This document shows positions 1,317-6,481 of a stretch of 64,000 nucleotides of DNA, in pieces. The position numbers were made by a program, and so were the translations under genes. The DNA comes from Rhodanobacter sp. C03 (GTDB lineage: Bacteria > Pseudomonadota > Gammaproteobacteria > Xanthomonadales > Rhodanobacteraceae): positions 1 to 64,000 of the forward strand of contig NZ_MUNT01000010.1 of assembly GCF_002001175.1 (NCBI RefSeq), written 5' to 3'. The notes beneath the pieces were generated by a model that was given only the letters and a program-made list of their open reading frames with translations, was not told where the DNA came from and ran no database searches. How positions within the stretch are numbered: the first letter of the stretch is position 1; each line of letters starts with the position of its first letter.

Positions 1317-1898
1317 TCAGTTGAAGTCGGCCGCCAGCATGCAGCGCTGTTCGGGCGTGAGGGTTGCTTCGATCGGCATCGCCGGCAGGGTCGAAGCAAG
1401 AGTGACCGGCGCGCCGGCGTTCCAGTCCGCGATCATCGCTGCATCGAGTTCGAAGCGCAGGAAATGCACGGCGGCAGTCTTCTCGTCGTTGCTGCGTTCC
1501 ATGTCCTCGTCGGCGATCGCGGTGACCGGTGCGTGTCCTTGCACGCTCAGCGTGATGGCGTGTTCGATATGGCGCAGGCGCACCAGCTCCAGCTTGCGCT
1601 GCTCGACGTCGGGATACTCGATCAGCAGGGTTGCCTTGAGATTGCCGCCGTCCGGGATCAGCGGGTTGTAGGCATCGAGTTCATCCTGGATGCCGATGCC
1701 CTCGAAGATGCGTTCGATGCGCAGCATCTCCTGTACCTGGTACTGCACGCTCAGCCGATCCTCGAAGATCAGCGTAAGGTGTTCGCCGATATGCACGCTG
1801 CGTTTTTTCTTGTGCACGATCACGCGGGTACGGAAATCGCCGCGTTGCTGCGCGTAGGCTTCGAGGGTGAGCAGGTCGGCGCGGGTCAGTTTTTGCAT
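1317..1898 (-). CDS. DUF3501 family protein
   Basis: This 193-residue protein has the hallmarks of DUF3501: an early LTRADLLTLEAY segment, the VIVHKKKRSVHIGEHLTLIFEDR stretch near residues 26-48, and acidic and aromatic residues through the middle. DUF3501 genes are typically found with a rubrerythrin and a CCG-domain Fe-S protein, and that set is present here. The biochemical role is not established. The association points to a redox or peroxide function with its two upstream neighbours. There is no signal peptide, so it is cytoplasmic. Confidence 0.85.
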   Translation of the reverse strand: MQKLTRADLLTLEAYAQQRGDFRTRVIVHKKKRSVHIGEHLTLIFEDRLSVQYQVQEMLRIERIFEGIGIQDELDAYNPLIPDGGNLKATLLIEYPDVEQRKLELVRLRHIEHAITLSVQGHAPVTAIADEDMERSNDEKTAAVHFLRFELDAAMIADWNAGAPVTLASTLPAMPIEATLTPEQRCMLAADFN

Positions 1899-1958
1899 GC
1901 TGCATCCTGGATAGTTTAGCGTGATGCTTGAGTGCGCGGTCGAGGCTTTATTTTTGCT

Positions 1959-2062
1959 GTCATTCCCGCGAAGGCGGAAATCGCTTTACAACAACGGAGC
2001 GGGTCATCCATGGTTGTTTATGGAGTAAAGGCAACTGCGATTCCCGCCTTCGCGGGAATGAC
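1959..2062. repeat. Palindromic intergenic repeat (GTCATTCCCGC type)
   Basis: Two inverted arms, beginning GTCATTCCCGCGAAGGCGG and ending CCGCCTTCGCGGGAATGAC, flank about 55 bp of spacer. Each arm has its own CCGCnnnGCGG stem, so either a paired REP-like unit or one large cruciform is possible. A diverged copy of the same design lies at 60011-60092. The repeat separates the Fe-S protein gene from DUF3501 without closing the operon. Confidence 0.75.
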
Positions 2063-2104
2063 GACTATAAAGAGTGACGGCTATGGCGTGGCGTCATGCG
2101 CTCC

Positions 2105-3448
2105 TCAAATGCCATAGGCCTTGCGCAGCAGGCTCAGCGGGTGTTCCGCTGGCGGCTTGTCGTCGAGGCCGTGGGCGATATGGCCGCCGGCCATCGGGCA
2201 GTCGCTGGTGAAGTGATCGGGGTGGGCTTGCTCGACGCGATTTTCCACCGGTTTCGCCAGCTTGCGCGAGAGCGCATAGGTCGCATGCTTCACACCGTAG
2301 GTACCGTCGTGGCCGGAGCAGCGCTCGATGGTGATGACTTCGGTGTCCGGCACCAGTTGCAGGATGTCGCGCGTCTTCGGGCCGATCTTCTGCACACGCT
2401 GGTGGCACGGTACCTGCCAGGCGACCTTGCCCAGCGACTGCTTGAAGTCGGTCTGCAGCAGGCCGGCCTTGTGGCGCTCGGCGAGGTATTCGAACGGATC
2501 GAAGAAGCGCTCGCGCACCAGCGCCACGTCGGCATCGTCCGGGAACATCAGCGGCAGCTCCTGCTTGAACATCAGCACGCAAGACGGGATCGCCGCGGTG
2601 AAATCCCAGCCCTCGCGCGCCATCTTCGCCAGCACCGGGATATTGCGTTCCTTGTATTTCTTCACCGTCTGCAGATCGCCCAGTTCCAGCTTGGGCATGC
2701 CGCAGCAGCTTTCCTGTTCGACCAGTCGCGTCGGGATAACGTTGTGCGTCAGCACTGCGGCCAGATCCTCGACTACCACTGGGTCGGAATGGTCGCAGTA
2801 GCAGGTGGCGAACAGCGCCAGCTTGCCGCGCGTGCGGCCGGCAGGAGTCGCCGTGCCGCTGCCGTCGAGATCGCGCAGGCGCTTGCGTGCGGTAGGTGTG
2901 TGGTACTCGGGCACCCGCGCCTCGGCATCGACGCCCATGGTTTTTTCCAGTAGCTTTCGCGCGCCCGGATTGCGGTTGGCAGCGTTTATCACCTGCACCA
3001 CCACCGGGATCGAAGCGAGTTTGCCGACGGCGCGGGTGTTGGACAGGATCATCGCCGACAGCGGTGCACCATGCTCATTAAAGTGCGTGGCCTTGGCGCG
3101 CAGCATCAGGTGCGGGAAGTCCACGTTCCACGGATGCGGCGGCGTGTACGGACATTTGGTCTGGTAGCACAGGTCGCACAGGTAGCACTGCTCGGTGACC
3201 TTGGGATAGTCGGCCTTGTCGACGCCGTCGATCTCCATCGTCTTCGATTCATCGATCAGGTCGAACAGGGTGGGGAAGGCGTGGCACAGGCTGACGCAGC
3301 GGCGGCAACCGTGGCAGATGTTGAACACTCGTTCGAGTTCCGCGTCGAGCGCCTGCTGATCCATGAATTCGGGATTGGTCCAGTCCAGCGGATGTCGGGT
3401 GGGTGCGTCCAGATTGCCTTCGCGTGTGCCGCTGATGGGCTCGGCCAT
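2105..3448 (-). CDS. Fe-S oxidoreductase with heterodisulfide-reductase-like (CCG) domains
   Basis: This 447-residue cytoplasmic protein is a ferredoxin-like module followed by two cysteine-rich CCG-type domains, as in GlpC and HdrD. The first cluster motif is Cys45-x2-Cys48-x2-Cys51-x3-Cys55; the second is Cys88-x2-Cys91-x2-Cys94-x4-Cys99-Pro, with one extra spacer residue. The CCG part shows ESCCGMP and a later ERCSGHDG, where the usual Cys pair is reduced. Such proteins pass electrons to a partner, here plausibly the rubrerythrin encoded upstream. The start at MAEPISG was chosen because the frame upstream of it runs through an intergenic repeat. Confidence 0.88.
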   Translation of the reverse strand: MAEPISGTREGNLDAPTRHPLDWTNPEFMDQQALDAELERVFNICHGCRRCVSLCHAFPTLFDLIDESKTMEIDGVDKADYPKVTEQCYLCDLCYQTKCPYTPPHPWNVDFPHLMLRAKATHFNEHGAPLSAMILSNTRAVGKLASIPVVVQVINAANRNPGARKLLEKTMGVDAEARVPEYHTPTARKRLRDLDGSGTATPAGRTRGKLALFATCYCDHSDPVVVEDLAAVLTHNVIPTRLVEQESCCGMPKLELGDLQTVKKYKERNIPVLAKMAREGWDFTAAIPSCVLMFKQELPLMFPDDADVALVRERFFDPFEYLAERHKAGLLQTDFKQSLGKVAWQVPCHQRVQKIGPKTRDILQLVPDTEVITIERCSGHDGTYGVKHATYALSRKLAKPVENRVEQAHPDHFTSDCPMAGGHIAHGLDDKPPAEHPLSLLRKAYGI

Positions 3449-3468
3449 GGTCGTGTCCTCGAAGCGTT

Positions 3469-3560
3469 GTAGGAGCGGCTTCAGCCGCGACCGCGGCGCA
3501 GCGTTGTCACGCAGCGCCGCGGTTATCCGGTACATCGGTCGCGGCTGAAGCCGCTCCTAC
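3469..3560. repeat. GTAG-type palindromic repeat (REP/SMAG-like)
   Basis: A GTAGGAGCGGCTTCAGCCGC arm and its exact reverse complement flank a second, inner inverted pair (GCGGCGCAGCG / CGCAGCGCCGC). Stem-loops opening with GTAG are the hallmark of REP elements in Lysobacterales, such as the SMAG elements of Stenotrophomonas maltophilia. It sits between rubrerythrin and the Fe-S protein gene and could attenuate or stabilise the message. No RAYT transposase is encoded in this window. Confidence 0.75.
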
Positions 3561-3581
3561 AAAATGCAGGTCAGCGATAAC

Positions 3582-4001
3582 TCAGCCCAGATCACCCAGC
3601 GCCTTGGTGAACCGGTTGGCGTGCGAACGTTCGGCCTTGGCCAGCGTCTCGAACCAGTCGGCGATTTCGTCGAAGCCTTCCTCGCGCGCAGCCTTGTGCA
3701 TGCCCGGGTACATGTCGGTGTACTCGTGGGTCTCGCCGGCGATGGCGCTCTTCAGATTCAGATGGGTTTCGCCGAACGGCAGGCCGGTGGCGGGATCACC
3801 GACGGCTTCCAGGTATTCCAGGTGGCCGTGCGCGTGGCCGGTCTCGCCTTCGGCGGTGGAGCGGAACACCGCGGAGACATCGTTGTAACCCTCCACGTCG
3901 GCCTTGGCGGCGAAGTAGAGGTAGCGGCGGTTGGCCATCGATTCGCCGGCAAAGGCGTCTTTCAGGTTCTGCTCGGTCTTGGAGCCTTTCAGGTTGCTCA
4001 T
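3582..4001 (-). CDS. Rubrerythrin family protein (diiron domain only)
   Basis: This 139-residue protein is a ferritin-like four-helix diiron protein. It begins SKTEQNLKDAFAGESMANRRY, the classic rubrerythrin start with the first Glu ligand, and has the later paired ligands in STAEGETGHAHGH and AKAERSHANRF. It lacks the C-terminal rubredoxin domain, so electrons must come from another protein; the Fe-S protein encoded next is the obvious candidate. Rubrerythrins reduce hydrogen peroxide in the cytoplasm. A well-formed OxyR box lies about 95 bp upstream, which predicts peroxide induction. Confidence 0.92.
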   Translation of the reverse strand: MSNLKGSKTEQNLKDAFAGESMANRRYLYFAAKADVEGYNDVSAVFRSTAEGETGHAHGHLEYLEAVGDPATGLPFGETHLNLKSAIAGETHEYTDMYPGMHKAAREEGFDEIADWFETLAKAERSHANRFTKALGDLG

Positions 4002-4066
4002 GACATCACCTCGTGGCGTGTGGCTGGGAGGGAAATACGAGTCGGCCTTGCGGTCTTGACCTGTCG

Positions 4067-4132
4067 AGCCTAGCGCCCGGCGGCCAGGGGATGAAATTGA
4101 TTGTCTCGATGGAACGGATAGCCGGCGGCTAT
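4067..4132 (-). promoter_or_regulatory. Predicted OxyR box and promoter for the rubrerythrin operon
   Basis: Read on the minus strand the site is ATAG-N7-CTAT-N7-ATCG-N7-CAAT, matching 14 of the 16 fixed positions of the extended OxyR pattern with exact spacing. It spans 4096-4132. The -35 candidate TTCATC (4090-4095) abuts it, followed by a 17-nt spacer and TAGGCT (4067-4072). This is the same arrangement as at ahpC, and the two sites share ACAATCAATTT. The distal half overlaps the oxyR stop codon. The hexamers themselves are weak, as expected of an activated promoter. Confidence 0.65.
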
Positions 4133-5100
4133 CGGCGTGCAGCGCGGCGTTTCGTTATGGGTGCGACTTCCGTGGCCAGTGGCGTGGCGGCGGTATGCGC
4201 GTCGAGCAGGTCGGCGGGCAGTTGTCGGAAGATCTGCGCCAGGCGTTTCAGGAAGCCATCCATCGCCGAACTCTTGCGCCAGATCATGGCGATGCGCCGG
4301 CTCGGCGGATGACCCTTGAACTCGATCAGGTGCAGGTTCTCCACCGGTGCCACCGGCGGCTTCACCGCGGTGACCGGCAGCAGGGTGATGCCGACATTCG
4401 CCGCCACCATCTGCCGCAGTGTTTCCAGGCTGGTGGCGCGGAAGCCGCTGTGCTCGCCGGCGCCGACCATGTGGCACACCTCGAGCGCCTGATCGCGCAG
4501 GCAGTGGCCGTCCTCCAGCAACAGCAGGTTCTGGTTGGACAGGTCGGCCAGCTTCAACTGGCCCTGCTTGTGTGCCAGCGGGTGTTCGGCCGAGACCGCC
4601 AGCAGGAACGGTTCCTCGAACAGGAACTCGCTGTGCAGGCTGTCCTCGTGCAGCGGCAGGGCGAGGATGCCGGCATCCAGCTTGCCCTCGCGCAACATGC
4701 GCAGCACCGATTCGGTCTTCTCCTCGACCAGCAACAGCTCTAGTCGTGGAAACGCCGTGCGTACCAGTGGCAGTACGTGCGGCAACAGGTACGGGCCCAG
4801 GGTCGGGAAGATGCCCAGCCGCACTGTGCCGGATTCCGGATCCAGCGTGCGCCGGGCCACGCCGCGGATCTGCTCGATCTCGTTGAGTACATCGCGCGCG
4901 CGCGCGGCGATGTCACGACCCACCTCGGTCAGCAGCACCTTGCGCGGCGTGCGTTCGACCAGCGGCACGCCAAGCTCGTCCTCGAGCTTCTTGATCTGGG
5001 TGGACAGGGTCGGCTGGCTGACGAAGCAGGCATCGGCGGCGTGGCCGAAGTGCCGATGCTCGGCCAGCGCCACCAGGTACTGGAGATCTCGCAGGTTCAT
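4129..5100 (-). CDS. oxyR: Hydrogen-peroxide-sensing LysR-type regulator OxyR
   Basis: This 323-residue LysR protein starts MNLRDLQYLVALAEHRHFG, the usual OxyR N-terminus, with the helix-turn-helix around residues 18-38. The peroxide-sensing cysteines are present as Cys200 and Cys209 in LEDGHCLRDQALEVC, matching Cys199 and Cys208 of E. coli OxyR, so disulfide activation should work. It is transcribed away from ahpC, and an OxyR box in the shared gap lies 20 bp from its start, which suggests autoregulation. The rubrerythrin operon follows downstream. An upstream frame extension was rejected because this ATG gives the family start. Confidence 0.96.
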   Translation of the reverse strand: MNLRDLQYLVALAEHRHFGHAADACFVSQPTLSTQIKKLEDELGVPLVERTPRKVLLTEVGRDIAARARDVLNEIEQIRGVARRTLDPESGTVRLGIFPTLGPYLLPHVLPLVRTAFPRLELLLVEEKTESVLRMLREGKLDAGILALPLHEDSLHSEFLFEEPFLLAVSAEHPLAHKQGQLKLADLSNQNLLLLEDGHCLRDQALEVCHMVGAGEHSGFRATSLETLRQMVAANVGITLLPVTAVKPPVAPVENLHLIEFKGHPPSRRIAMIWRKSSAMDGFLKRLAQIFRQLPADLLDAHTAATPLATEVAPITKRRAARR

Positions 5101-5119
5101 CGCACGCCTCATCCAGGCC

Positions 5120-5185
5120 ATAGGCTCAACCTATGATTGCGATGGTAACAATCAATTTGAACAATGCAAGTGCGGACGCTATCTT
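5120..5185 (+). promoter_or_regulatory. OxyR box and promoter in the oxyR/ahpC divergent region
   Basis: ATAG (5120-5123), CTAT (5131-5134), ATGG (5142-5145) and CAAT (5153-5156) are each separated by exactly 7 nt, matching 14 of 16 fixed positions of the OxyR tetramer site. TTGAAC (5157-5162) follows with no gap, then a 17-nt spacer and TATCTT (5180-5185), giving a sigma-70 promoter for ahpC. A site abutting the -35 element is the usual position for OxyR activation. Its other edge is 20 bp from the oxyR ATG, where it could repress oxyR. Confidence 0.8.
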
Positions 5186-5250
5186 GTTCGTCAAGGCACC
5201 TGCTGCAAGGCGTCTCTCAACCCCCTAATCCATTACCGAAGGCTAACTCC

Positions 5251-5790
5251 ATGCTGACCATTGGCGACAAGTTTCCCCAGTTCAACGTCCCGGCCACCGT
5301 CTCGATCGAGAGCCTGGACAAGGCGTTTCAGAACATCGACAACAACACCTACAAGGGCAAGTGGACCTGCGTGTTCTTCTACCCGAAGGACTTCACCTTC
5401 GTCTGCCCGACCGAGATCAAGGGCTTCAGCGACGTGAACCAGCAGTTCGCCGATCGTGACTGCCAGGTGCTCGCCGCCAGCACCGACAGCGAGTTCGTGC
5501 ATCTGGCCTGGCGCAAGGACCACAAGGACCTGCGCGACCTGAAGTTCCCGATGCTGGCCGACATCAAGAAAGAGCTCACCAATGCGCTGGGCATCCTGAC
5601 CGACGACGGCGTGGCGCAGCGCGCGACGTTCCTGGTCGATCCGGAAGGCATCATCCGCTTCGTCTACGTCACCGACGGCTCGGTCGGCCGCAACCCGGCC
5701 GAAGTGCTGCGCGTACTCGACGCGTTGCAGACCGACGAGCTGTGCCCGTGCAACTGGAGCCAGGGCGAAGAGACCCTCAAGGTCGCCTGA
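5251..5790 (+). CDS. ahpC: Alkyl hydroperoxide reductase AhpC (peroxiredoxin)
   Basis: This 179-residue 2-Cys peroxiredoxin reduces hydrogen peroxide, organic peroxides and probably peroxynitrite in the cytoplasm. The peroxidatic cysteine is Cys52 in FTFVCPTE, and the C-terminal DELCPCNW carries Cys165 and Cys167 for resolution. The DELCPCNW ending is common in AhpC proteins whose partner is AhpD. An in-frame upstream extension exists, but the ATG at 5251 follows a GAAGG ribosome-binding site and gives the standard MLTIGDKFP start. An OxyR-controlled promoter precedes it, a terminator follows, and no ahpF is nearby. Confidence 0.97.
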   Translation: MLTIGDKFPQFNVPATVSIESLDKAFQNIDNNTYKGKWTCVFFYPKDFTFVCPTEIKGFSDVNQQFADRDCQVLAASTDSEFVHLAWRKDHKDLRDLKFPMLADIKKELTNALGILTDDGVAQRATFLVDPEGIIRFVYVTDGSVGRNPAEVLRVLDALQTDELCPCNWSQGEETLKVA

Positions 5791-5926: not shown

Positions 5927-6481
5927 ATGAGTCATACCGACATGAGTCTTGCCGATCTGAAAAGCCAGTTGCCCGACTACGCCAAGGACCTGCGTCTCAA
6001 CCTCGAGTCCGTATTGACCGAGGGTGGTGCGCCCGGCCTGACCCAGAAACAGATTGCGGTGATCGCGCTCGCTTCGGCGATTGCATCGCGCTACAAGCCG
6101 CTCACCGCGGCGATCAACGAAGAAGCCGCGCAGCACGCCAGCGCGGAGGAATTGAACGGTGCCCGCGTCGCCGCCGCGATCATGGGAATGAACAACATCT
6201 ACTACCGCTTCGTGCACCTGGTCGGCGACGCCGAGTACGGCACGTTGCGCGCCGGCCTGCGCATGAACGCGATGGCCAATCCGGGCGGCGACAAGATCGA
6301 CTTCGAGCTCGCCTCGCTGGCGGTGTCGGCGGTGAACGGCTGCGGCATGTGCCTGGAGTCGCATGAGAAGACCCTGCGCAAGCACGGTCTGTCGGCGCAG
6401 TCGATCCAGAGCGCGGCGCGTATCGCCGCGGTGATCCATGCGGTTGCGGTGGCGCTGGAGCAGGCTGATGTGGCTGGCTGA
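5927..6481 (+). CDS. ahpD: AhpD-like alkylhydroperoxidase (CMD family)
   Basis: This 184-residue protein belongs to the carboxymuconolactone decarboxylase fold and has the AhpD active-site string ELASLAVSAVNGCGMCLESH: a CxxC pair, a His four residues on, and an upstream Glu. AhpD reduces oxidised AhpC through its CxxC pair, taking electrons from a dihydrolipoamide-type donor, and so replaces AhpF. Its position directly after ahpC and the absence of ahpF fit that role. It has its own terminator, and a terminator separates it from ahpC, so a separate promoter or read-through is needed. Confidence 0.9.
   Translation: MSHTDMSLADLKSQLPDYAKDLRLNLESVLTEGGAPGLTQKQIAVIALASAIASRYKPLTAAINEEAAQHASAEELNGARVAAAIMGMNNIYYRFVHLVGDAEYGTLRAGLRMNAMANPGGDKIDFELASLAVSAVNGCGMCLESHEKTLRKHGLSAQSIQSAARIAAVIHAVAVALEQADVAG

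Follow-up and report, generated by a model that had tools for sequence, protein, structure and literature searches.

Genes of the rubrerythrin locus

The window, i.e. the whole 64,000-nucleotide (64-kb) stretch of DNA that was analysed, carries three neighbouring genes on its minus strand: rbr, RFO and DUF3501. The first, at 3582–4001 with its ATG at 4001, encodes a 139 amino acid rubrerythrin of the aerobic type that has neither a rubredoxin domain nor a cysteine residue. RFO (2105–3448) encodes an Fe-S protein that contains a CCG domain; its start was taken at the ATG at 3448, and a longer open reading frame extends to 3535. The DUF3501 protein is encoded at 1317–1898. Past DUF3501, two further predicted proteins are found on the same strand (131–496 and 715–1314), neither of which has a Pfam match. 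A gene for a LysR-type regulator, oxyR (4129–5121), is also on the minus strand, and ahpC (5251–5790) and ahpD (5927–6481) are on the plus strand. The rubrerythrin, Fe-S/CCG-domain protein, DUF3501, AhpC/Prx and AhpD assignments are by Pfam/NCBIfam.

The best NCBIfam match of the LysR-type regulator is OxyR, with a score of 325.5 bits that is just below the cut-off of 329. The protein contains GHCLRDQALEVC, which has the spacing of the OxyR redox cysteines (C199/C208 in E. coli). The genome encodes an OxyR with both redox cysteines. The solved structures nearest to the rbr product are rubrerythrins such as 4di0, followed by sulerythrin, which is described as having no rubredoxin domain (PMC5114695). 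The three genes represent the known aerobic-type rubrerythrin cluster, in which a rubrerythrin devoid of the rubredoxin domain adjoins RFO and DUF3501 (PMC5114695).

The box in the probable rubrerythrin promoter

An OxyR-type box is located at 4096–4132 on the minus strand, with the sequence ATAG-N7-CTAT-N7-ATCG-N7-CAAT, i.e. four tetrads at a spacing of seven nucleotides. It is abutted by a −35-like hexamer, TTCATC (4090–4095, 3/6 relative to TTGACA), and 17 nucleotides past this is a −10-like TAGGCT (4067–4072, 3/6 relative to TATAAT). The rbr start codon lies downstream of the box and both hexamers on that strand. This arrangement was described by a first-pass annotation and is present at 4132–4067 exactly as read there. 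Compared with ATAG-N7-CTAT-N7-ATAG-N7-CTAT, the box matches at 14 of 16 positions; the distal half is perfect (8/8) and the proximal half has 6/8. The oxyR stop codon (4131–4129) is inside the first ATAG, so the box begins within oxyR.

A second OxyR-type box precedes ahpC at 5120–5156 on the plus strand and is followed by TTGAAC-N17-TATCTT. The likeness of the two boxes, also pointed out earlier, holds: both score 14/16 and both contain ACAATCAATTT. They are the only sites in the window with a score of at least 12/16. An order-3 Markov simulation trained on the window gave a single site of at least 14/16 in 196 million positions, which corresponds to a chance of about 5e-7 per gap of 127 bp, the distance between oxyR and rbr. 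The earlier view that agreement of this kind is unlikely to be fortuitous in such a gap is thus borne out.

A promoter scan of the locus called no promoter at TTCATC-N17-TAGGCT. Poor sigma-70 hexamers and a null scan are expected of an activator-dependent promoter, and they are not counted here as support for one.

Related boxes elsewhere in the genome

The 3.86-Mb genome was searched with two consensus patterns, the OxyR consensus and a second one built on the form of the rbr box. With at most two mismatches to the OxyR consensus, only the rbr and ahpC boxes are found. With at most three, there are three distinct places, namely rbr and ahpC (two mismatches each) and one site with three mismatches; since the consensus read backwards yields two sites per strand at this level, the three-mismatch class is not significant by count. 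The second pattern returns the same three sites and one more, four in all, with control values of one forward and none in reverse. The number of weaker sites on its own proves little.

All four sites precede peroxide or iron defence genes. The two weaker boxes are on L129 (2370–2406, minus strand), 59 bp before a gene for a Dps-type ferritin and followed by TTCCAG-N17-TACTGT, and on L153 (2008–2044, plus strand), 58 bp before a catalase gene and followed by TTCCCT-N17-TAGCCT. The product of the Dps-type gene has a ferritin domain and scores 76.8 bits with the Dps model, below the cut-off of 114. As at rbr, a hexamer directly follows each of these boxes, with TA-N3-T 17 nucleotides further on.

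Conservation of the promoter box

rbr is present in 45 of 117 genomes of the family (Rhodanobacteraceae), and all 45 were examined. Relatives with the same gene order but no box had been named as a finding that would speak against OxyR control; the box is kept in 44 of the 45, with scores of 14 in 20 genomes, 13 in 22 and 12 in two. The exception (G096) has a box score of 8, a rubrerythrin that is 76% identical, and no RFO in the stretch that was fetched. These 44 promoters share descent. Shuffled upstream regions reached a score of 12 in four of 1800 trials and never a higher one. Eight versions of the pattern with altered tetrad spacings scored mostly 7–11, with one 14 and two 12s.

The geometry is also conserved. 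The distance from box to ATG is 76–106 bp in the 44 genomes, bar one at 260 bp, and TA-N3-T is present downstream of the box in 43 of 44 (with a spacer of 17 nucleotides in 39 and 18 in four). A logo of the 44 family promoters anchored on the box, with G096 left out, has conserved tetrads and a conserved TTCA after the last of them; most spacer positions are variable. The commonest proximal half is AT[C/A]G-N7-C[A/G]AT. Thus, the contrast between a perfect distal and a weakened proximal half noted in the first-pass annotation stands as a description (8/8 and 6/8), but the proximal half is not a product of decay; it corresponds to this prevailing family form. An additional ACAAT before the last tetrad (box columns 28–32), outside the OxyR consensus, is seen in the family promoters as well as in the ahpC box.

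Seventy-two family genomes have no rbr, and in 20 of these a region of 660 bp, spanning the end of oxyR and the sequence behind it, was tested. No box of at least 12 is present behind oxyR in any of the 20 (the highest score is 11), and 15 of the 20 have one upstream of oxyR. Among rbr-bearing genomes, a box of at least 12 upstream of oxyR is found in 18 of the 35 that could be checked. With 18/35 against 44/45, the rbr box is more constant than the one upstream of oxyR, presumably the autoregulatory/ahpC box. The box goes with rbr and not with oxyR.

In the Burkholderiaceae loci the box takes a shorter form. All 12 rbr loci of this family in the wider survey described below (L015, L017, L018, L021, L025, L032, L042, L050, L058, L073, L078 and L080) display CTAT-N7-AT[T/A]G-N7-C[A/T]AT, then TGGG, and then TAGATT at a spacer of 16–18 nucleotides; the distal ATAG is missing. 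Three genes of Burkholderia pseudomallei, bpss1837–1839, correspond to the rbr-RFO-DUF3501 genes, with bpss1837 presumably being the DUF3501 gene. Their expression has been reported to increase by log2 3.31–3.37 under H2O2 and to be lower by 1.68–1.84 in a sigma E mutant; a dependence on OxyR is not stated in the parts of the paper drawn on here (PMC4175613). The rise under peroxide favours the OxyR reading of the rbr promoter, and the sigma E effect counts against it.

Extent of the transcription unit

It had been predicted that rubrerythrin, the Fe-S protein and DUF3501 form one OxyR-activated operon. The promoter sequence gives good support for the control of rbr by the box. Control of the whole set of three genes is likely as well, though with less certainty. 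The gap between rbr and RFO is 133 bp and contains a REP-like inverted repeat (3469–3490 and 3539–3560) with a predicted folding energy of −87 kcal/mol, compared with −49 (standard deviation 4) in 60 shuffles; the gap and the hairpin disfavour tight co-transcription of rbr and RFO. A second REP-like inverted repeat, at about 1960–2060 between RFO and DUF3501, has a single predicted value of −80 kcal/mol, determined without a shuffle set. A terminator scan of 1800–5400 found one candidate, at 5363–5346, and none within the rbr-RFO-DUF3501 cluster or between oxyR and rbr. In the family, the rbr-RFO gap has a median of 118 bp and a range of 23–677 bp (44 genomes, with two start codons that could not be placed).

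Probable OxyR activation and its alternatives

The region 4132–4067 on the minus strand is very probably an OxyR-activated promoter of rubrerythrin, as judged from its sequence. The box would offer four half-elements to a tetramer of OxyR, and it lies directly against the −35 element of what would be a weak promoter of the sigma-70 type. Peroxide would oxidize OxyR and give rise to a disulfide between the two cysteines of the GHC-N8-C motif. The oxidized tetramer could then contact all four elements and recruit RNA polymerase, and rbr would be turned on. RFO and DUF3501 may be switched on at least partly by readthrough from rbr. Co-activation with ahpC would be expected, and elsewhere in the genome with the Dps-type ferritin and the catalase. 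Binding, activation by peroxide and co-transcription of the three genes are suggested here by inference, as is the enzyme chemistry, in which the rubrerythrin would reduce peroxide at a diiron site with RFO as the likely electron donor.

Perhaps the box is genuine, but rbr is transcribed mainly as the tail of oxyR and the promoter at 4132–4067 adds little. oxyR is co-oriented with rbr and ends 127 bp ahead of it, no terminator-like site separates the two, and the gap folds no more stably than shuffled sequences. Against this, 17 of the 44 box-bearing family genomes have either an oxyR whose end is over 400 bp distant or a locus in which no oxyR was found, yet the box and the promoter geometry are kept in them. 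Transcription chiefly from oxyR thus appears quite improbable.

Slightly less probable still is that OxyR binds the box for repression or that a different LysR-type regulator binds there. Sites of LysR-type regulators share a general layout, and binding at this box is so far a prediction. However, the tetrads match those of OxyR, the site is just upstream of the −35 hexamer instead of covering the start, and boxes of this form recur at the ahpC, Dps-type ferritin and catalase genes. The overlap of the first ATAG with the oxyR stop codon might suggest sequence coincidence or a coding constraint, but the simulation, the shuffles, the altered spacings and the rarity of such sites in the window speak against chance, the 17 genomes that keep the box without an adjacent oxyR speak against constraint, and both were rejected as having a negligible probability.

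If the rubrerythrin promoter is activated by OxyR as proposed, the OxyR regulon that a bacterial family is likely to have gains a three-gene peroxide defence that is uncharacterized and includes DUF3501. This would also provide a simple route to the induction and study of RFO and DUF3501.

A palindrome and Irr-type proteins in other Proteobacteria

A wider survey drew on 592 confirmed relatives, of which the best 80 were kept. These overlap the 45 family loci (for example, G067 appears to be L001, and G018 to be L002), and the two sets were not summed. An OxyR-type box of at least 12 is present upstream of rbr in 25 of the best 80 loci; chance may account for some of the 12s among AT-rich loci. 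A palindrome, TTAGA-N-T-N-A-N-TCTAA, is found at 11–12 of 12 positions in 29 of the 80. Among these best 80 of 592, no locus has both a box of at least 12 and a palindrome of 11–12. The form TTAGAcTnAgTCTAA was observed upstream of rbr in L062, L055, L030, L074, L033, L024 and others.

Eight genomes were searched for TTAGACTNAGTCTAA with at most one mismatch. Each genome has one or two copies, and in all eight a copy is situated just before rbr; where there is a second copy, it shares that promoter (one genome) or is away from rbr (two genomes). The sequence read backwards has matches in two of the eight. The rbr palindrome, TTAGA-N5-TCTAA, resembles the Irr box, TTTAGAA-N3-TTCTAAA. A short Fur-family protein is encoded by five of the eight genomes. 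Two of these five proteins were tested, and their best NCBIfam matches are IrrA and Irr at 118–129 bits, below the cut-offs of 150 and 170.

An Irr-type profile was built from the five proteins and compared with the genomes of all 80 survey loci (46 and 34; the best 80 of 592). It matches 21 of 29 genomes with a palindrome of 11–12, the five source proteins being among these 21 matches, and eight of ten with a palindrome score of 10. Matches are found in two of seven genomes with neither motif, two of the 25 whose OxyR box scores at least 12, and none of nine others (L027 and eight Burkholderiaceae, the latter with partial boxes). The values from Fisher tests are 1.4e-6 (25 versus 29 genomes) and 1e-9 (34 versus 39); they ignore kinship, and many of the genomes are metagenome assemblies. 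The association of the palindrome with an Irr-type protein is a correlation. Two other approaches to a Fur-type regulator were discarded: no Fur-type gene was recognized by eye beside the palindrome among open reading frames of 100–229 amino acids upstream of rbr in 13 loci, and a regular-expression search for Fur motifs in the 80 survey loci turned up nothing beyond apparent frame noise and pieces of RFO.

The window does not belong to the palindrome group. No palindrome is evident on reading the region upstream of its rbr, the same-genus loci L001 and L002 have palindrome scores of 7/12, and a search of its genome with the Irr profile returned nothing at 1e-15. Its family of 117 genomes has one weak match (64.9 bits, in G056).

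We lean towards a broader reading in which the aerobic-type rubrerythrin operon of beta- and gammaproteobacteria is wired either to OxyR or to an Irr-type member of the Fur family that acts at TTAGA-N5-TCTAA, an operator with nearly a single target, and never to both, and in which the lineage of the window made or kept the OxyR wiring. The apparent either-or of box and palindrome at one operon presents a clean and testable exchange of regulators.

Comparison with known systems

To our knowledge, rubrerythrin is not a target of OxyR in E. coli. OxyR boxes are already known, and the rbr box is a further example. Like the E. coli-type boxes with ATAG-N7-CTAT repeats (PMC5002191), it has four tetrads at N7 spacing beside a −35 element. 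It differs from them in its proximal half, AT[C/A]G-N7-C[A/G]AT, and in the extra conserved ACAAT.

The aerobic-type cluster of Cardenas 2016 has the same three kinds of genes and a rubrerythrin without the rubredoxin domain. In the main text of that paper, a search for the terms 'OxyR', 'promoter', 'regulator' and 'binding site' found none (PMC5114695). The OxyR control proposed here is an addition to the description of the cluster. A literature search on OxyR and rubrerythrin found no report of an OxyR site at the operon, at the level of titles and the beginnings of abstracts and with few subscription journals covered. In Sideroxydans, oxyR is beside the same genes, and this gene neighbourhood ties OxyR to the cluster; the part of the source consulted gives neither a binding site nor a promoter (PMC7852563).

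The probable Irr-like wiring of this operon in other genomes is less expected than the OxyR box. Irr controls the rubrerythrin-like genes mbfA of Rhodobacter and blr7895 of Bradyrhizobium, where Irr boxes are reported; the sections consulted print no consensus for them (PMC3413700). In both cases a rubrerythrin-like gene is under a regulator of the Fur family, and they are comparable to the palindrome loci that have no OxyR box. They differ in that they are from Alphaproteobacteria and involve another rubrerythrin-like gene, whereas in the genome of the window no Irr-type protein was found and the rubrerythrin promoter carries the OxyR-type box.
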